Positions 34,624 through 41,745 of a stretch of 64,000 bases of DNA are shown one piece after another. Within the stretch, counting starts at the first letter, position 1. Each line of letters opens with the position of its first letter. Origin of the DNA: Bradyrhizobium sp. 1 (GTDB lineage: Bacteria > Pseudomonadota > Alphaproteobacteria > Rhizobiales > Xanthobacteraceae); assembly GCF_023073315.1 (NCBI RefSeq), contig NZ_JADPJH010000014.1, positions 124,001 to 188,000 on the forward strand. Direction: 5' to 3'. The position numbers and the translations under genes are program-made. The notes below the pieces were generated by a model. That model was not told the origin of the DNA. It searched no databases and saw only the letters and a program-made list of their open reading frames with translations.

Positions 34624-34653
34624 TGATCCAAGCCCCTCTGGCGGACGTATACG
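34624..34653 (+). promoter_or_regulatory. Predicted ECF11 (RpoE-ChrR type) promoter of the DUF2177 gene
   Basis: TGATCC (34624-34629), an 18-base spacer, then TATACG (34648-34653). The architecture is identical to the two promoters at the sigma gene locus. The predicted start site near 34660 leaves about 20 bases before the ATG at 34680, and it settles the start choice for that gene. Confidence 0.7.
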
Positions 34654-34679
34654 GGATGACGGCAATTTCGGAGAGCACG

Positions 34680-35084
34680 ATGGCCTATGTGGTCGGCTAT
34701 ATCACCGCGCTGATCGCCTTTGGCGCGATCGACGTCATCTGGCTGAGCTTGGTGGGGCCTGCGCTCTATCGTCCGACGCTTGGCGATATCCTGCTGACCG
34801 ATCTCCGGGTGGTCCCAGCCGTGACGTTCTATGCGATTTATCCCATTGGACTTCTCGCCTTCGCCGTCATGCCGGGACTGAAGTCGGATTCAATGGCCTC
34901 CGTCGCCGGGTTGGCCGCGCTGTTCGGAGCGATCGCCTACGCCACCTACGACCTGACCAATTTTGCAACGCTGCGCAATTGGACGCTGCAGATTACGGCG
35001 CTCGACATCGCCTACGGCGCGGCGGCCTCCGCTTTTGCAGCCTTCGTCAGCTTTCTCGTCGTTCGCGCCGTTGCGCACGACTGA
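34680..35084 (+). CDS. DUF2177 membrane protein
   Basis: 134 residues with four hydrophobic helices. The motif ATYDLTNFATLRNW is the DUF2177 hallmark. The ATG at 34680 has GGAG seven bases upstream and lies just after a predicted ECF11 promoter; a longer frame upstream would cross the promoter. Function unknown. DUF2177 genes are often near CFA-type methyltransferases and ChrR (from memory), and here the promoter puts it in the same regulon. Its 3' end converges with the first CFA-like gene. Confidence 0.85.
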   Translation: MAYVVGYITALIAFGAIDVIWLSLVGPALYRPTLGDILLTDLRVVPAVTFYAIYPIGLLAFAVMPGLKSDSMASVAGLAALFGAIAYATYDLTNFATLRNWTLQITALDIAYGAAASAFAAFVSFLVVRAVAHD

Positions 35085-35088
35085 AGGC

Positions 35089-36123
35089 TCAGGCTGGACG
35101 TGTCGGCGACAGCCGATAGTGGCCGACTTGCCACTCCTCGCCGCCGGCGTGACCAAACAGGCCGATGGTGGCGAGAAAGAACAAGCGCCATCGCCGCTGC
35201 CAAAGACGCGCGTCCTTGCCGTAGACCTGTCTCAGCACCTCGAAAATTTCGGCTCGATATCGATCGTAATTGGCCAGCCAGTCCCGGGCCGTCTTTGCGT
35301 AATGCCGGCCGTTCCACTGCCACTCGGCATCCACGATGAAGAGATCCTCAAACTGCCGGATCAGCCGGTAGCTCGGCATGATGCCGCCGGTGAAGAAATG
35401 CTGCGCAATCCAGTCCGCGCGGTTCTCAGGCGAAAACCGATAAGACCCGTATTTGTGGGTGAAGATGTGAAGGAACAGCAGGCCTTCGGGAGCCAACGCA
35501 GCGCGCAGGCGCGTCAGCAGCAGCCGCCAATTGAGCATGTGCTCGAACATCTCCACGGAGACGATTCGGTCGAATTGGCCCTGGGGCACGAATTCGTTCA
35601 TGTCGGCTGTGATCACCGACAGGTTGCGAATGTTGGCCGCACCGGCCTGGCGTAGGATGAACTCCCGCTGCGAGGCCGAATTCGACACCGACGTGATGCG
35701 CGAATTGGGATAGCGCCGCGCCATCCACAGAGACAACGAGCCCCAGCCGCAACCCAGTTCGAGAACATCCTGCCCATCCGCCAATTTTGCGTGCTCGGCA
35801 GTCATATCCAGCGCGCGCGCTTCAGCCTGCGACAGCGTGTCGAGATCGTCGCCATAGAAGCAGCTGGAGTATTTTCGTTGTGGGCCCAGTATCAGCTCGA
35901 AGAACCGCGCGGGAATCTCGTAATGCTGGGCATTGGCTTCAGCGGTGTTGGTCGCAATCGGAAGCGCGGCAATCTCACGGGCGAAACTCGCGTCCGAACA
36001 GCGCGAGGATTGCGCCAGGTCACGCTGCGTGCATTCGACCAGGCGAGTGATGACCGCTGCGCTGACGCTGTCCGGCCACGGCAACGCTTCGCCGAGTCGG
36101 ATCGCGATCTCCGTCAATGTCAA
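35089..36123 (-). CDS. CFA-type SAM-dependent methyltransferase, copy 1
   Basis: 344 residues from a TTG start at 36123 with GGAGG five bases upstream and one base past the DUF1295 stop. The SAM-binding motif is VLELGCGWGSLSLWMARRYP. The fold matches cyclopropane-fatty-acid synthase: HYEIPARFFELIL, FDRIVSVEMFEHM, FLHIFTHKYG. Where E. coli Cfa has Cys139 in its YSCAYW motif, this protein reads YSSCFY. The His equivalent to Cfa His266 is kept. Probable substrate is the double bond of a phospholipid acyl chain; the product may be a methylated rather than cyclopropane chain. It ends the sigma-chrR-DUF1295 unit. Confidence 0.85.
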   Translation of the reverse strand: MTLTEIAIRLGEALPWPDSVSAAVITRLVECTQRDLAQSSRCSDASFAREIAALPIATNTAEANAQHYEIPARFFELILGPQRKYSSCFYGDDLDTLSQAEARALDMTAEHAKLADGQDVLELGCGWGSLSLWMARRYPNSRITSVSNSASQREFILRQAGAANIRNLSVITADMNEFVPQGQFDRIVSVEMFEHMLNWRLLLTRLRAALAPEGLLFLHIFTHKYGSYRFSPENRADWIAQHFFTGGIMPSYRLIRQFEDLFIVDAEWQWNGRHYAKTARDWLANYDRYRAEIFEVLRQVYGKDARLWQRRWRLFFLATIGLFGHAGGEEWQVGHYRLSPTRPA

Positions 36124-36124
36124 A

Positions 36125-36937
36125 CTAGCCTCCCGTCGATGTCTTCCGCGGCCCGAGAAAGAATACGTTCGTTGCCGTCTGGTACTTCCGAAATGCATCG
36201 CCCCGACTGGCCAGCATGTGTTCTTTCAGCGGCGGAATGCCGGAGACATAGACGAGCAGCCAGTACATGCAGAGCGGGGCAACAAGCGCAAAATAGCCCC
36301 AGAGGTCGCTTCCCGTGGGATCGATGGCCAGAACGGGATAGGCGAGCCAGCCGAGCCATTCGAAGAAGTAGTTTGGATGACGCGACCACCTCCACAGCCC
36401 GACGTCGCAAATCCTCCCTTCGTTGCCTGGGTCATGTCGGAATCGGCGCAGCTGCTCGTCAGCGGCGGCTTCCCCGGCGATGGCCACGACAAAAATCAGA
36501 AGAGCGGTCGCGGCTTGCACCGGATGGACCGGACCGGGCGCGGCTGCCGCGAGCCACATCGACAGCGCGAGTGGAATGCTGACGAGTGCCTGCTTTTGCA
36601 ACAACCCGAGCATGCGCGATGTTGCGTCGGCGCCCCACTCCCGAATGAGCTTGGCATAGCGCGGATCATCCGTGATGCCCCGCGTGCGGCGCGCAATGTG
36701 CGACCCGAGCCGGAGCGCCCAGATCGCCGCCATTGCCGCGACGAGGACGCTCTGAAGCTGCATCGGCTTGACCGTCACGGCGCCGGCAAAGCCGACCAGG
36801 CCAAGCCCGAATGTCCAGATGGTGTCGACCCATCCCGAATTACGCGACCCGCGCCAGACCAGCCAGGCGGCGGTCATGATGATCGAGAGCGCCGCCGAGA
36901 CGCCGATCAGACCGATGATGAATGTTGAAGCGGTCAT
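36125..36937 (-). CDS. DUF1295 / steroid-5-alpha-reductase-like membrane protein
   Basis: 270 residues with six to seven membrane helices. The C-terminal block WRWSRHPNYFFEWLGW is the DUF1295 signature, related to ICMT-like and 3-oxo-5-alpha-steroid dehydrogenases; it suggests an NAD(P)H- or SAM-using lipid enzyme. It follows chrR by 28 bases and precedes the CFA-like gene by one base, so it belongs to the sigma operon. Substrate unknown. Confidence 0.88.
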   Translation of the reverse strand: MTASTFIIGLIGVSAALSIIMTAAWLVWRGSRNSGWVDTIWTFGLGLVGFAGAVTVKPMQLQSVLVAAMAAIWALRLGSHIARRTRGITDDPRYAKLIREWGADATSRMLGLLQKQALVSIPLALSMWLAAAAPGPVHPVQAATALLIFVVAIAGEAAADEQLRRFRHDPGNEGRICDVGLWRWSRHPNYFFEWLGWLAYPVLAIDPTGSDLWGYFALVAPLCMYWLLVYVSGIPPLKEHMLASRGDAFRKYQTATNVFFLGPRKTSTGG

Positions 36938-36965
36938 TCAGCAGCTCAGCCAAATAGCGACGGCT

Positions 36966-37598
36966 TCACAACCGAACGAATGGCTGCAGCAGCCGTCCGA
37001 GCCACCCGCGCAGCTCGAGGTCGCCCTGCATGGCCACCAGGCAAATGCAGATGTCCCCCTCCTCGACGAGCGGCGTGTGATCGACAGTATCGTCGGCTGC
37101 GTCAAAATCGCCTGGACCATAGCGGCCGAGATCGTGGCGAAATGCGCCCTGAAGCACACAGGTCCATTCGACCCCGGAATGGCCATGGTGTGGCAGCGAA
37201 GATCCGGGCGCAGCCTTCAGCATGAAGACGCGCGTGCCCTCGCTCTCGGGCACCTCGACCTTCCTCCAGTGAACGCCAGGGCCGATCCATCGCCAGCGGC
37301 CGACCTCGTAGGGGGCAAGGACACCAGGACAATCGGGCTCCGGCTGATGCAGGGCCGGCGCCGGCGGCGCGGCCTCGTCCAGCCGTGCGAGAGTCTCGTC
37401 CAGTGAGCCGGCGCGCGCGGCAGCCGGCGGCGCTCGCTCGACCAATGCACCACCGAACTGCTCGAAAGCCGCCACTGTCGCCCGGCAACAAGGACATAGC
37501 GCGACATGGGCGGCCACGACGACGCTGCGCGGCTCGTCGAGCGAGCCCGATGCGAAAGCCAGCAGGGTTTCCTCATCTGGATGATGCGTGATCGTCAT
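36966..37598 (-). CDS. chrR: ChrR-type zinc anti-sigma factor
   Basis: 210 residues. The N-terminal anti-sigma domain has zinc ligands His6, His31, Cys35 and Cys38 in TITHHPDEE and HVALCPCC, the same positions as in Rhodobacter sphaeroides ChrR. The C-terminal half is a cupin with His138, His140, Glu144 and His174 (LPHHGHSGVEWT, TVDHTP) that could bind a second metal and is needed for the singlet-oxygen response in that homologue. It overlaps the sigma gene by four bases (ATGA), so the pair is coupled, and should sequester the sigma factor until oxidative stress. Confidence 0.93.
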   Translation of the reverse strand: MTITHHPDEETLLAFASGSLDEPRSVVVAAHVALCPCCRATVAAFEQFGGALVERAPPAAARAGSLDETLARLDEAAPPAPALHQPEPDCPGVLAPYEVGRWRWIGPGVHWRKVEVPESEGTRVFMLKAAPGSSLPHHGHSGVEWTCVLQGAFRHDLGRYGPGDFDAADDTVDHTPLVEEGDICICLVAMQGDLELRGWLGRLLQPFVRL

Positions 37599-38164
37599 GA
37601 GTTCTCACCGAGGAAATCGCGCAAGCGCGCCATAGCCAACCGCAGCCGGGACTTCACCGTTCCAAGCGGAATGCCGAGCTTCGTCGCGATGTCGCCATGG
37701 GCATTGCCTTCAAAGAATGACAGCTCCACCACGCGGACCTGCTCCTGCGGCAAGCCCTCCAGCGCGGCGCGCACACGGCGTTCGCGCTCGACGGCCTCGA
37801 ACGGCACGTCGGGCGGATCAGTCTCGGCGGGAAGCATGAGCTCGTACACCTGATGGAGCTGCGCGCGCTGATCTTTTCGAAACCGGTCGATGCGAAGGTT
37901 CCTGGCGATGGTAAATATCCAGGCGGACACAGTCGCCTTCTGGGGATCGTAGCTGGCGGCCTTGCGCCAGACCGCGATCAGCGTCTCCTGCGCCAGATCT
38001 TCGGCGATCTCGGCCGCTGCCCCGCCCCTCATCAGCACGGTCTTGATACGCGGTGCGTAGAAGCCAAACAGGTCCTTGAACGCCTCGCGATCACCGCGCG
38101 ACGCTATGGCACGAACCAGGGTTGCGGCTATTTGCGGTGTAATGGACTCAACCCCGCAACGCAT
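37595..38164 (-). CDS. rpoE: ECF sigma factor, RpoE/ECF11 type
   Basis: 189 residues from the ATG at 38164; the frame is open 94 codons more but those cover the promoter. Region 2 is EAFKDLFGFYAPRIKTVLMR with the core DLAQETLIAVWRKA and WIFTIARNLRIDRFRK. Region 4 HTH is LSFFEGNAHGDIATKLGIPL then GTVKSRLRLAMARL. It is the partner of ChrR. It should recognise the TGATCC-N18-TA promoters found upstream of itself, of the oxidoreductase operon and of DUF2177. Its leader is about 98 bases. Confidence 0.92.
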   Translation of the reverse strand: MRCGVESITPQIAATLVRAIASRGDREAFKDLFGFYAPRIKTVLMRGGAAAEIAEDLAQETLIAVWRKAASYDPQKATVSAWIFTIARNLRIDRFRKDQRAQLHQVYELMLPAETDPPDVPFEAVERERRVRAALEGLPQEQVRVVELSFFEGNAHGDIATKLGIPLGTVKSRLRLAMARLRDFLGENS

Positions 38165-38268
38165 GATGGCTTCCGGCCGACTGTCCCATCGCCGCCGTCT
38201 CTCCCCTGGTCCCGGCTGACGCCTGCCGTACCCTAGCCTAGCTACTGTACCGGTGGTTTGCATACATC

Positions 38269-38298
38269 CAGATACGTCCGCCGCCCGGCTTTGGATCA
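38269..38298 (-). promoter_or_regulatory. Predicted ECF11 promoter of the sigma-chrR operon
   Basis: On the minus strand TGATCC (38293-38298), 18 bases, then TATCTG (38269-38274). This gives autoregulation of the sigma gene. Its -35 end faces that of the divergent promoter at 38312, the two forming an 11-bp inverted repeat with arms CTTTGGATCAC and GTGATCCAAAG. Confidence 0.75.
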
Positions 38299-38311
38299 CC
38301 ACGAACGGATG

Positions 38312-38341
38312 TGATCCAAAGTCGCTTCTCGCCCGTAACTG
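38312..38341 (+). promoter_or_regulatory. Predicted ECF11 promoter of the FAD-oxidoreductase operon
   Basis: TGATCC (38312-38317), 18 bases, then TAACTG (38336-38341), with a predicted start near 38348, about 46 bases before the gene at 38394. Same spacing as the divergent sigma promoter and the one at 34624. Confidence 0.75.
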
Positions 38342-38393
38342 TGACCGGAACCCAAGTGCCCATCCATGGGGCCAACCACGAGGATGGGGCGGG

Positions 38394-39737
38394 ATGCAGG
38401 GCGAGAACGGACCGCGAAAACGGATTGCGGTGATCGGCACGGGCATATCCGGGATGTCTGCGGCATGGCTCCTAAGCCAGCGGCATGACGTGACAGTCTA
38501 TGAGCGCGACCGCCGGGTCGGCGGCCACTCCAATACCGTCGAGGTTCGTACGTCGGATGGCGTCGTTCCCGTCGACACCGGATTCATCGTCTACAACGAG
38601 AAAACCTACCCGAACCTGACGGCGCTCTTTGCTTACCTCAATGTGCCGACGCATGCCTCCGACATGTCGTTCGCCGTCTCGCTCGAGGATGGCGAGCTGG
38701 AATATTCAGGTACCAGCCTGAACGGCCTGTTCGCCCAACGCAGCAACGTCTTTCGTCCACGCTTCTGGTCCATGCTCAACGACCTGTGGCGGTTCTATCG
38801 CGAGGCACCGCGGGATCTGTCGACGCTCGACGATCTCTCCTCCCTGGAGCAATATCTCGACGCTGGTTATTACGGTCAGGTCTTTCGCAGCGACCATCTG
38901 TTGCCGATGGCCGCAGCGATCTGGTCGTCCTCGCCCAGCCTGATGCTGCAATATCCGGCAGCCTCGTTCATTCGCTTTCACGACAATCACGGATTGCTGC
39001 AGCTGCGCAACCGGCCGCAATGGCGGACGGTCGTCGGCGGCAGCCGTAGCTACGTCGATTCGCTCACGCATCGGTTCAGGGAGGGCCTCCATCTTCCCCG
39101 GGGCGTGACGGCCATCCAGCGCCAAGAGAATGGTGTCGAGGTGAGCGATAGCGGCGGCCACGCCAACCACTTCGATGATGTCGTCGTCGCGACGCATGCT
39201 GATCAGGCGCTGACGCTGCTGCAGGAGCCGACGGCAGAGGAGCGGACCCTGCTCGGATCATTTCGCTACAGCCGGAACCGCGCCGTTCTCCATAGCGATC
39301 CGGTCTTGATGCCGCAACGCAAGGCAGCGTGGGCGAGCTGGAATTACATCGGAGGCAAGGGCACCACGGAAATTCCAACCGTGACCTATTGGATGAACGC
39401 ACTTCAACAGTTGCCGACAACAAAGAATTTGTTCCTGACGCTCAATCCACAGATTGAACCAAGAGAAATTTTGCACGAGGAGAAATACGATCATCCGATC
39501 TTCGATGCCGAAGCCATGAGCGCACAGCGCAGCCTGTGGTCCTTGCAACGCAGGAGCCGCACATGGTTCTGCGGTTCCTATTTCGGCGCCGGTTTCCACG
39601 AGGATGGGCTCCAATCAGGACTCGCCGTTGCAGAAGCGCTCGGCGGCGTCCGGCGGCCGTGGCGCGTTGAAAACGAGTCCGGCCGTATCTACATGAACGA
39701 TGGGAGCCGTGATCAGACAAGGCCACTTGCCGCATGA
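38394..39737 (+). CDS. FAD-dependent NAD(P)-binding amine-oxidase-fold oxidoreductase
   Basis: 447 residues. The dinucleotide motif RIAVIGTGISGMSAAWLLSQ and VYERDRRVGGHSNT is at the N-terminus. Homologues are flavoproteins grouped with amine oxidases and phytoene-desaturase-like enzymes, and in ChrR-type clusters they are placed in unusual-fatty-acid oxidation or desaturation. The ATG at 38394 follows GAGG; the 47 codons upstream cover the ECF11 promoter. It overlaps the DUF1365 gene by four bases. It probably acts on the methylated acyl chain made by the CFA-like enzymes. Confidence 0.85.
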   Translation: MQGENGPRKRIAVIGTGISGMSAAWLLSQRHDVTVYERDRRVGGHSNTVEVRTSDGVVPVDTGFIVYNEKTYPNLTALFAYLNVPTHASDMSFAVSLEDGELEYSGTSLNGLFAQRSNVFRPRFWSMLNDLWRFYREAPRDLSTLDDLSSLEQYLDAGYYGQVFRSDHLLPMAAAIWSSSPSLMLQYPAASFIRFHDNHGLLQLRNRPQWRTVVGGSRSYVDSLTHRFREGLHLPRGVTAIQRQENGVEVSDSGGHANHFDDVVVATHADQALTLLQEPTAEERTLLGSFRYSRNRAVLHSDPVLMPQRKAAWASWNYIGGKGTTEIPTVTYWMNALQQLPTTKNLFLTLNPQIEPREILHEEKYDHPIFDAEAMSAQRSLWSLQRRSRTWFCGSYFGAGFHEDGLQSGLAVAEALGGVRRPWRVENESGRIYMNDGSRDQTRPLAA

Positions 39738-40522
39738 TATCATCTTCGTGCCTCTACACCGGCCAAGTTGTTCACCGCCGCCTCCTGCCTCGGACGCATC
39801 AGCTGCGCTACCGGGTGTTCTGGATGTTGCTCGATTTGAACCAGATCGACAGCCTCTCGAAGCAGCTCAGTTTCTTTTCACGCAATCGCTTCAATCTCTC
39901 CAGCTTCCACGACGGCGACCATGGCGACGGCAGTGACGTCTCGCTTTTAGAGCAGATGCAGCGCCTTTTGCGACAAGCAGGGTGTCAGGCCGACCAGCTC
40001 ACGATCAGGCTGCTCTGCATGCCGCGTATTCTCGGCCACGGCTTCAATCCGCTGAGTGTCTATTTTTGTTACCGACGTGACGGCTCGCTCGAGGCAATCA
40101 TCTACGAGGTCCACAATACCTTCGGCGATCGGCACAGCTACGTGATGCCGATCCATGGCGCCACGACAGAGATCATCGAGCAGAGTTGCCCGAAGGATTT
40201 CTACGTCTCGCCATTCCTGGGCATGGACATGTCCTATGGATTTCGCGTCCGGCCTCCGGCCGCGCAGGTGGAGGTTTCCATCCACGGCAAGGAGGGCGAC
40301 AAGACGGTCATCACCGCATCGCTTTCCGGGAGACGCCACCCATTGACCGACAGCGCTCTGATCAAGGCCTTTTTCAGCCATCCGCTGCTCACATTGAAAG
40401 TCATCGCGGCCATCCATTGGCACGCGTTGCGGATGATCCTTAAGGGCTTTCGCTTGCATCCCCGTAAGCTCGAAGCGCAACGCGCGGTAACGGCCGCGGA
40501 CGGTCGAGGACTCCAGCCATGA
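39734..40522 (+). CDS. DUF1365 family protein
   Basis: 262 residues, starting at the ATGA overlap with the oxidoreductase. Motifs CLYTGQVVHRRLLPRTHQLRYRVFWM at the N-terminus, then RILGHGFNPLSVYFCYR and KDFYVSPFLGMDMSYGFR, define the family. DUF1365 genes recur with CFA-type methyltransferases and FAD oxidoreductases. No catalytic residue is known to me; a lipid-binding or lipid-modifying role is inference. It overlaps the following gene by four bases. Confidence 0.88.
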   Translation: MISSSCLYTGQVVHRRLLPRTHQLRYRVFWMLLDLNQIDSLSKQLSFFSRNRFNLSSFHDGDHGDGSDVSLLEQMQRLLRQAGCQADQLTIRLLCMPRILGHGFNPLSVYFCYRRDGSLEAIIYEVHNTFGDRHSYVMPIHGATTEIIEQSCPKDFYVSPFLGMDMSYGFRVRPPAAQVEVSIHGKEGDKTVITASLSGRRHPLTDSALIKAFFSHPLLTLKVIAAIHWHALRMILKGFRLHPRKLEAQRAVTAADGRGLQP

Positions 40523-41745
40523 GGTCCAGCTCGTCCACGTTAGCGCCTGATGTCGTCGCCGAGCCCTCGGGGCTGGTAACCCGGATGATTGGCCGGCTAC
40601 TTCCACCGATTCAATCGGGCCGTCTGCGGCTGGTTCTCCCGAACGGCGAGCAGCTCGAACTTGGCAGGCGAGATTCGGGCGCCCGGGATGTAGGCAGCGA
40701 CATCTCCGTAACCGTACATCGCTGGCGAGCATTACGGCGCGTATTGCTTTCCGGCGAGGTCGGATTCTCCGACGGCTATATCGCCGGCGATTGGTCCACC
40801 AACAATCTGGTAGGCGTGCTCGACTTCATCGTTCGAAACGAGACGGCTTTCGCCAAGGTCGCAACCTCCCGCGCCCCTCGCGTCCTTGATTGGCTCCGGC
40901 ACCGCGCCCGAGCGAATACCAGGGCCGGTAGCAAAAGGAACATCGCAGCCCACTATGACCTCGGTAACGAGTTCTACCGCCAATGGCTCGATCAAGGGAT
41001 GAACTACTCTTCCGCGATCTACGATTCGGAGGTTTCGCTGGAGGCGGCGCAGCAAAACAAACTTGAACGAGTGTCCCGTTACCTCGATCTCAAGGGCGGC
41101 GAGCGCGTTCTCGAAATCGGGTGTGGATGGGGATCGCTCGCAGAGCATCTGGTTCGCTGCCACGATGCGGCCGTCACTGGGGTTACACTTTCCCGATCGC
41201 AGCTAGACTATGCGCAGCTGCGCCTGTCGAGGGAGATCGAAGCCGGTAAGGCTGCCATTCGCTTTCAGGACTATCGCGACATCGACGGGCGTTTTGACCG
41301 GATCGTCTCGATCGAGATGTTCGAGGCCGTCGGTGAACGATACTGGCCGCTCTATTTCGAGAAGCTGCGGTCGAGCCTCGTCAAAGGCGGGGTCGCCGTG
41401 CTCCAAATCATCACGATCGCGCCGTCTCGCTTCAATGCCTATCGAAACACTCCGGATTTCATTCAGCGCCACATCTTTCCGGGAGGCATGCTGCCGACCG
41501 CCGAGATCGTCGAGGAACAGGCGGCCAAAGCCACGCTCAAGGTGACGGGCCGGGAGTCCTTCGGATTGAGCTACGCCCGCACCCTCCGGGACTGGCGCGA
41601 CCGTTTCATGGAATCGTGGCCGGAAATCGAAACCCGCGGCTTCGACACGCAGTTTCGCCGCATGTGGGAATACTATCTGGCCTATTGCGAAACTGGATTT
41701 CGACACGACGCCCTCGACGTGAGCATCTTCAAGCTGACGCACTGA
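40519..41745 (+). CDS. Cyclopropane-fatty-acid synthase-like methyltransferase, copy 2
   Basis: 408 residues, full-length relative to E. coli Cfa, with its N-terminal domain and a SAM-binding site VLEIGCGWGSLAEHLV. Alignable blocks are HYDLGNEFYRQWLDQGMNYS, FDRIVSIEMFEAVGERYWPLYF and ESFGLSYARTLRDWRDRF. The residue at the Cys139 position is Ser (MNYSSAIY versus MQYSCAYW), and the His266 position is Gln (VLQIITI versus LLHTIGS). The Glu in MFEAVG and the Tyr in LSYARTL are retained. These changes suggest a methyltransferase with altered chemistry or specificity rather than a standard cyclopropane synthase. It closes the three-gene operon. Confidence 0.87.
   Translation: MRSSSSTLAPDVVAEPSGLVTRMIGRLLPPIQSGRLRLVLPNGEQLELGRRDSGARDVGSDISVTVHRWRALRRVLLSGEVGFSDGYIAGDWSTNNLVGVLDFIVRNETAFAKVATSRAPRVLDWLRHRARANTRAGSKRNIAAHYDLGNEFYRQWLDQGMNYSSAIYDSEVSLEAAQQNKLERVSRYLDLKGGERVLEIGCGWGSLAEHLVRCHDAAVTGVTLSRSQLDYAQLRLSREIEAGKAAIRFQDYRDIDGRFDRIVSIEMFEAVGERYWPLYFEKLRSSLVKGGVAVLQIITIAPSRFNAYRNTPDFIQRHIFPGGMLPTAEIVEEQAAKATLKVTGRESFGLSYARTLRDWRDRFMESWPEIETRGFDTQFRRMWEYYLAYCETGFRHDALDVSIFKLTH

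Follow-up and report, generated by a model that had tools for sequence, protein, structure and literature searches.

Eight intact genes at positions 34680-41745 of the window, a 64,000-nucleotide stretch of a Bradyrhizobium-like genome, probably form a singlet-oxygen regulon of the ECF11 (RpoE-ChrR) type, which is predicted to yield membrane phospholipids carrying methylated furan fatty acids. The genes make up three units of four, three, and one (Table 1): a leftward unit encoding, in order, a sigma factor, the anti-sigma factor ChrR, a DUF1295 membrane protein, and a methylase of the CMAS family (CFA1); a rightward unit encoding a flavin adenine dinucleotide (FAD) oxidoreductase, a DUF1365 protein, and a second CMAS-family methylase (CFA2); and a single DUF2177 gene, convergent with CFA1. 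A preliminary description of this DNA had named these families and this arrangement, and domain scores recover all of them, intact and placed as it had them (Amino_oxidase, 77 bits for the FAD oxidoreductase; CMAS, 133.6 bits for CFA1 and 274.8 bits for CFA2; 203.2 bits for DUF1295; 274.9 bits for DUF1365; PF09945, 125.5 bits for DUF2177); its total of nine genes was a miscount, as the open reading frames give eight. Homology and gene order likewise support its reading of the regulator as one of the singlet-oxygen type and of the outputs as membrane-lipid remodelling.

The regulator and the furan-forming core are of already known kinds; what is new is that a FufM-type methylase, DUF1295, and DUF2177 share promoters with them. 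The chemistry of UfaM, UfaD, UfaO, and FufM, the turnover of ChrR, and the loss of furan fatty acids to singlet oxygen have been shown by others in homologues; to these we add predicted roles for CFA1, DUF1295, and DUF2177, and a predicted induction of the set in this organism. Singlet oxygen would cause the loss of ChrR and free the sigma factor, which would switch on its own operon, ufaD-ufaO-ufaM, and the DUF2177 gene through one promoter type. UfaM would methylate cis-vaccenoyl chains, UfaD would add a second double bond, and UfaO would insert an O2-derived oxygen and close the ring, giving the methylated furan fatty acid 9M5-FuFA; CFA1, as FufM, would then add a second ring methyl to give 9D5-FuFA. 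The furan would be sacrificed to singlet oxygen; DUF1295, quite likely a reductase using reduced nicotinamide adenine dinucleotide phosphate (NADPH), may reduce the electrophilic ene-dione left by ring opening; and DUF2177 would act as a membrane accessory of the furan pathway.

Regulator and shared promoter

The motif TGATCC-N16-CGTA stands before each of the three units, which bears out the single promoter type claimed for them in the preliminary description. In its strict form the motif occurs at nine sites in the 7,985,562-base genome, as compared with none for the reversed control; three of the nine fall within 3.7 kb of the cluster, an arrangement with a chance of about 1e-8 for one given stretch at nine sites per genome. 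The best PDB match of the sigma factor is R. sphaeroides RpoE (2Q1Z_A, E 2.5e-38; the best of eight at E<=1e-10), and that of the anti-sigma factor is ChrR (2Z2S_B, E 2.9e-41, residues 1-197); the latter protein also scores 203.1 bits against TIGR02451 (cut-off 124.5) and contains a Cupin_7 domain. Its sequence has His6, His31, Cys35, and Cys38, which correspond to the zinc ligands of the ChrR anti-sigma domain. An RpoE-like sigma factor, a two-domain ChrR, and a promoter shared with the targets are thus all present, and by sequence the cluster is assigned to the ECF11 type. The EcfQ and EcfF sigma factors of B. japonicum, also studied for singlet oxygen, were rejected as the same system because their anti-sigma arrangement differs: ecfQ has no adjacent anti-sigma gene, and EcfF has another anti-sigma factor, OsrA (PMC3420878).

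A looser motif (TGATC[CTA]-N15 to 17-CGTA, at most 300 bp upstream) was counted in 80 listed named loci, after sigma matches below 36% identity and loci with less than 250 bp of upstream DNA had been dropped; the CFA2 row of this count is uninformative, since CFA1 cross-matches CFA2. Of the usable listed loci, 28 of 32 have the motif before the sigma gene, 20 of 54 before ufaD, and 10 of 51 before DUF2177 (all reversed controls, 0), so that most listed loci lack it in this form before the latter two genes. It is rare before DUF1295 (1/63), CFA1 (1/65), UfaO (0/55), and ChrR (0/32), as expected for positions internal to an operon.

The predicted furan core and the second methylase

The right-hand unit is very probably ufaD-ufaO-ufaM, because its DUF1365 protein belongs to the UfaO family, its flavoprotein is of the UfaD type, and the gene order of R. 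palustris is kept. UfaM methylates cis-vaccenoyl chains; UfaD, the FAD protein RSP1091, yields a methylated diene; and UfaO, the DUF1365 protein RSP1090, is both required and sufficient for the furan, the ring oxygen of which comes from O2 (PMC7380195). The same source assigns the same steps to R. palustris RPA2571-2570-2569, and the FAD oxidoreductase, DUF1365, and CMAS methylase genes are contiguous here in that order. The three genes are also contiguous in four of five named genomes searched (Rhodopseudomonas JSC-3b, AAP120, and B29, and Bradyrhizobium BTAi1), at loci that end inside ufaD and encode Ufa proteins 41-49% identical to those of the window. From this order and these families we predict a methylated furan fatty acid as the core product. 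The preliminary description had asked whether the cluster makes furan fatty acids or something new, and had not matched DUF1365 or the flavoprotein with any one Ufa enzyme: the core is predicted to make the former, and DUF1295 and DUF2177, which track UfaO across genomes, are candidate additions to it.

The two methylases differ in kind. CFA2 matches CFA synthase (6BQC, E 1e-52), with no N-methyltransferase listed at E<=1e-20. CFA1 shows the opposite ranking: coclaurine N-methyltransferase (6GKV, E 5.2e-59) comes first in the PDB, pavine and other N-methyltransferases follow, and 6BQC stands at E 1.8e-27. The CMAS score of CFA1 is about half that of CFA2, and the proteins are 32.9% identical over 234 amino acids. 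Both miss the NCBIfam cut-off for CFA synthase of 400 bits (CFA1, 140.7; CFA2, 263); a classical cyclopropane synthase was rejected as an identity for CFA1, given this equivalog cut-off and the first rank of the N-methyltransferases. CFA2 is of the UfaM type. The label CFA1 in the preliminary description needs correcting, as the protein is closer to N-methyltransferases than it is to cyclopropane synthases; it is most likely FufM, and no second cyclopropane or methyl-branching enzyme.

FufM converts 9M5-FuFA to 9D5-FuFA, and RPA3082 and RPA0924 are given beside UfaM for R. palustris (PMC7380195). Within the 4.1 Mb of R. palustris JSC-3b searched, the family has just two members at E<=1e-10: UfaM, and a protein of the CFA1 type preceded by DUF1295. 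AAP120 and B29 add a third, CFA-like member, in keeping with the RPA3082/RPA0924 list. By family type and elimination we consider CFA1 a likely FufM, the putative methylase of the dimethyl furan. An improbable alternative is that CFA1 acts on a different lipid head group or chain, as an aminolipid N-methyltransferase would, so that the cluster would give only 9M5-FuFA and a second product. Its nearest solved structures, plant N-methyltransferases, would suit such a role; however, FufM itself is 37.9% identical to plant LIME1/AT4G33110 (PMC10940516), the Chlamydomonas CFA2 is also annotated as a coclaurine N-methyltransferase, CPLD27 (PMC4067076), and the JSC-3b sequence searched offers only UfaM and the CFA1-type protein as candidates. 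Another plant protein, AT3G23510 of Arabidopsis, shows similarity to UfaM and to UfaD (PMC10940516). If CFA1 is FufM, a furan methylase of this type is placed in the singlet-oxygen sigma operon of a rhizobial genome and its relatives.

CFA1-type genes also occur elsewhere. The genome under study (G000) carries a second one (L030, G000 C24:288089-289156), 51% identical, with DUF1295 not adjacent and EMFEQ in place of the usual EMFEH; the lone CFA1-type copy of genome G024 (L028) is similar to it and has ETFEQ. Five further Bradyrhizobium loci (L037, L051, L057, L063, and L088) have CFA1-type genes without a nearby DUF1295.

DUF1295 and DUF2177 as candidate pathway members

DUF1295 and DUF2177 track UfaO across genomes. 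Two samples were surveyed, one of the family (80 genomes, the genome under study counted; CFA1 scored at E<=1e-30) and one of the class (142 genomes; UfaO scored at a liberal E<=1e-20). The family sample contains UfaO in 39 genomes, DUF1295 in 33, and CFA1 in 20; UfaO is present in all 33 genomes with DUF1295 as compared with 6 of the 47 others, and in 19 of the 20 with CFA1 as compared with 20 of the remaining 60. UfaO occurs in 66 of the 142 class-sample genomes, including all 14 with DUF2177 (as against 52 of 128 others), 13 of 15 with DUF1295, and 6 of 7 with CFA1. DUF1295 adjoins CFA1 in 18 of 20 loci (19 others and the paralogue in the same genome). Among 80 listed named loci around CFA1, many of them on contigs that end within the flanks, tblastn shows at least 64 with DUF1295, 56 with UfaD, 55 with UfaO, 53 with DUF2177, and 33 with ChrR. 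Loci of Bosea, Mesorhizobium, Methylobacterium, and Ancylobacter repeat the whole arrangement, and Rhodopila has all of it except DUF2177; the closest of the listed named loci by protein identity (80-88%) is that of Bradyrhizobium sp. OK095.

By sequence, DUF1295 returned no PDB match, and Foldseek found none at E<=0.001 (best, 2.3e-3); the fold assignment is accordingly taken from a second structural alignment of an AlphaFold2 model (54 sequences; mean predicted local distance difference test, pLDDT, 95.8). In that model the whole chain takes a steroid/sterol reductase fold: the top matches are delta-14 sterol reductase (4QUV, Z 14.4, 236 residues aligned, 3.7 A) and steroid 5-alpha-reductase (7C83, Z 13.7, 215 aligned, 4.1 A; also 7BW1, Z 12.2), at 12-13% identity in the matched rows, DUF1295 being a Pfam family of its own. 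One chain from the Ycf2-FtsHi complex of Arabidopsis ranks third (Z 12.3), and the next other fold is at Z 6.3. At the sequence level Pfam Steroid_dh passes its cut-off (31.7 bits; cut-off 22.6), and the motif Arg-His-Pro-Asn-Tyr (RHPNY) is invariant in 54 of 54 sequences, its Asn presumably marking the sterol-reductase form. These data point to DUF1295 as quite likely an NADPH reductase.

Steroid 5-alpha-reductases reduce an enone, and singlet oxygen opens furans to ene-diones. Singlet oxygen formation also promotes the destruction of furan fatty acids (PMC6852236). On the strength of the reductase fold, this chemistry, and this destruction, we propose tentatively that DUF1295 reduces the ene-dione of an oxidised furan; a literature check on the ene-dione chemistry of furan fatty acids found nothing usable. 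If DUF1295 does repair or detoxify oxidised furan lipids, this would explain how the electrophiles made by the shield itself are survived, and could bear on membrane-damage sensing by ChrR.

Two other roles for DUF1295 appear unlikely, to about the same degree. As a biosynthetic reductase paired with CFA1, it would saturate a methylene or methyl-alkene chain made by the methylase and so yield, in parallel to the furan route, a methyl-branched fatty acid; this would suit both its adjacency to CFA1 and its sterol-reductase fold. However, in the family sample UfaO occurs without CFA1 at E<=1e-30 in 14 of the 33 genomes with DUF1295, so that DUF1295 tracks the furan pathway more than the methylase, and FufM makes the dimethyl furan without a partner in R. 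sphaeroides (PMC7380195). Alternatively, DUF1295 could be an ICMT-like S-adenosylmethionine (SAM) methyltransferase and no reductase, as it shares a fold with ICMT (4A2N, Z 12.0; 5V7P, Z 10.8) and has a weak Pfam ICMT match below the cut-off (18.7 bits; cut-off 24). The top two reductases score higher than these, Steroid_dh passes where ICMT does not, and the Asn of the invariant motif speaks for a sterol reductase.

DUF2177 is modeled with confidence as a four-helix membrane protein (pLDDT 96.8); comparisons with the PDB gave nothing at E<=0.001 and a Z of at most 5.2, results that show neither a new fold nor a function. Among the papers searched that name DUF1295 or DUF2177, as judged from titles and the beginnings of abstracts, only PMC4067076 concerns singlet oxygen. 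DUF2177 genes also neighbour heliorhodopsin genes, another link to light (PMC11109279). One more speculative extension, to which we give a low probability, is that DUF1295 reduces the ene-dione to a saturated 1,4-dione and DUF2177, by its invariant Asp and Tyr, helps the dione to close to a furan with loss of water, in the manner of a Paal-Knorr reaction. The shield would then regenerate, with furan fatty acids quenching singlet oxygen catalytically instead of being sacrificed, and, given the same five protein families in Chlamydomonas, bacteria and green algae would share a repair cycle under unrelated regulators. Two domains of unknown function here become candidate members of a furan fatty acid pathway.

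A number of observations weigh against the furan reading or parts of it. In Caulobacter OR37 neither UfaD nor UfaO lies within 1.5 kb of the best CFA2 match, and the links from the window to the R. sphaeroides Ufa proteins and to RPA0924 are drawn through family, gene order, and elimination. AAP120 and B29 contain three proteins of the methylase family, the third CFA-like; JSC-3b is another strain, and with 4.1 Mb searched a further methylase could be missed; R. palustris CGA009 fell outside the best 80 loci kept of a longer list. The Fisher values for co-occurrence run from 1e-16 up to 0.04, ignore kinship, and count the genome under study; G024 has a CFA1-type protein without UfaO, and G104 (86% complete) and G170 (95%) have DUF1295 without UfaO at E<=1e-20. 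DUF1295 is not nearby in 16 of the 80 listed CFA1 loci, and in Rhodopseudomonas the promoter motif is absent within 300 bp of the DUF1295-CFA1 pair. The ICMT similarity of the DUF1295 model counts here too, as does the point that between helical models a Z below about 13 may reflect a common arrangement only, a level that the two top reductases exceed. Lastly, FufM alone gave the dimethyl product in R. sphaeroides (PMC7380195), so DUF1295 is unnecessary for the second methylation.

A plain oxidative-stress regulon making cyclopropane fatty acids, which the two CMAS-family proteins might suggest, was rejected as very improbable on the sub-cut-off scores of both methylases, the N-methyltransferase ranking of CFA1, and the contiguity of the UfaD and UfaO homologues with CFA2.

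Known systems and further promoter sites

The closest regulatory parallel drawn here, RpoE-ChrR of R. sphaeroides, shares the sigma factor and ChrR homologues, the autoregulated promoter, UfaD and UfaO genes beside the sigma gene, and UfaM in the regulon; it also shares a GTP cyclohydrolase target, folE2 there (PMC7074977), with a site before folE here. In contrast, the 15-gene list in that source names no DUF1295, DUF2177, or second methylase, some of its entries being given only as 'hypothetical protein', and ufaM (RSP_2144) lies apart, beside phrA by locus number. R. palustris has the same families and three-gene order (RPA2571-2569) and fufM (RPA0924), and the DUF1295-CFA1 pair is present in all three Rhodopseudomonas genomes searched; there, however, the pair stands apart from ufaDOM and has no ECF11 motif, whereas in the window a single cluster unites them with the sigma gene and DUF2177. 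In Chlamydomonas, singlet oxygen acting through SAK1 induces CFA1, CFA2 (CPLD27), DUF1365, DUF2177, and DUF1295 genes (PMC4067076). As reported there and compared by family only, these include every enzyme-like family of the cluster except a separate FAD protein, but they have an unrelated regulator and lie at separate loci. Two methylases, DUF1365, DUF1295, and DUF2177 are thus a set that stands together in alphaproteobacteria and is switched on by singlet oxygen in Chlamydomonas. A fasciclin-like gene is, like the furan set, singlet-oxygen-induced in both Chlamydomonas (FAS2, PMC4067076) and R. sphaeroides (RSP_1409, PMC7074977).

Beyond the window, one strict site lies 108 bp before folE, encoding GTP cyclohydrolase I by Pfam (L009, G000 C38:677083-677108), and another before a ferrochelatase gene, also by Pfam (L001, G000 C6:98967-98992). 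OK095 keeps the ferrochelatase site, its spacer differing at 3 of 16 bases; the folE gene of Bosea CRIB-10 has a motif site 32 bp upstream with an unrelated spacer (L135). Both genes look like further sigma targets, possibly serving the control of porphyrin, a photosensitiser, and the supply of folate for photolyase. An ECF11-type site also stands 10 bp before a DNA photolyase gene in a Pseudolabrys metagenome-assembled genome (L128). RpoE of R. sphaeroides controls folE2 and phrA (PMC7074977), and phrB, ufaM, and folE are light-induced in Pseudomonas (PMC9758184). OK095, Pseudolabrys, and Bosea together have 26 motif sites as compared with 3 for the reversed control, and no target gene was recognised at 15 of the 26. 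A further site outside the window (L008, G000 C38:182446-182471) has an AraC-family regulator gene about 100 bp downstream, and none of the sites in those three genomes is followed by a matching protein; sites L005, L006, and L007 lie within coding frames and were discounted as chance occurrences.

Two start codons called for a choice. For DUF2177 the probable start is ATG 34680, since the alternative, an in-frame ATG at 34656, is only 7 bases past the -10 element; CFA1 probably starts at TTG 36123, which is preceded by GGAGG, position 36198 not being favoured.

Table 1. Genes and promoters of the cluster, with positions in the window
Feature	Position	Strand	Basis
ECF11-type promoter, DUF2177 unit (TGATCC-N16-CGTA)	34624..34649	+	motif scan
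Small membrane protein of the DUF2177 family; 4 predicted helices, with invariant Asp and Tyr in them	34680..35084	+	PF09945, alignment, model
CFA1, putative FufM-type SAM methyltransferase, CMAS family, coclaurine N-methyltransferase branch, likely TTG start	35089..36123	-	domain and PDB sequence matches
DUF1295 membrane protein, sterol/steroid reductase fold (model), invariant RHPNY	36125..36937	-	domain, alignment, model
Anti-sigma factor ChrR, cupin-containing; His6, His31, Cys35, Cys38	36966..37598	-	TIGR02451, PDB match
ECF11 sigma factor, RpoE type, 189 amino acids from chosen ATG	37595..38164	-	PDB match
ECF11-type promoter, sigma-chrR-DUF1295-CFA1 unit	38273..38298	-	motif scan
ECF11-type promoter, ufaD-ufaO-ufaM unit	38312..38337	+	motif scan
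UfaD-type FAD-dependent fatty acyl desaturase (putative)	38394..39737	+	family, gene order
UfaO-type DUF1365 protein, putative furan-forming oxygenase	39734..40522	+	family, gene order
UfaM-type SAM fatty acyl methylase (CFA2; putative)	40519..41745	+	family, gene order

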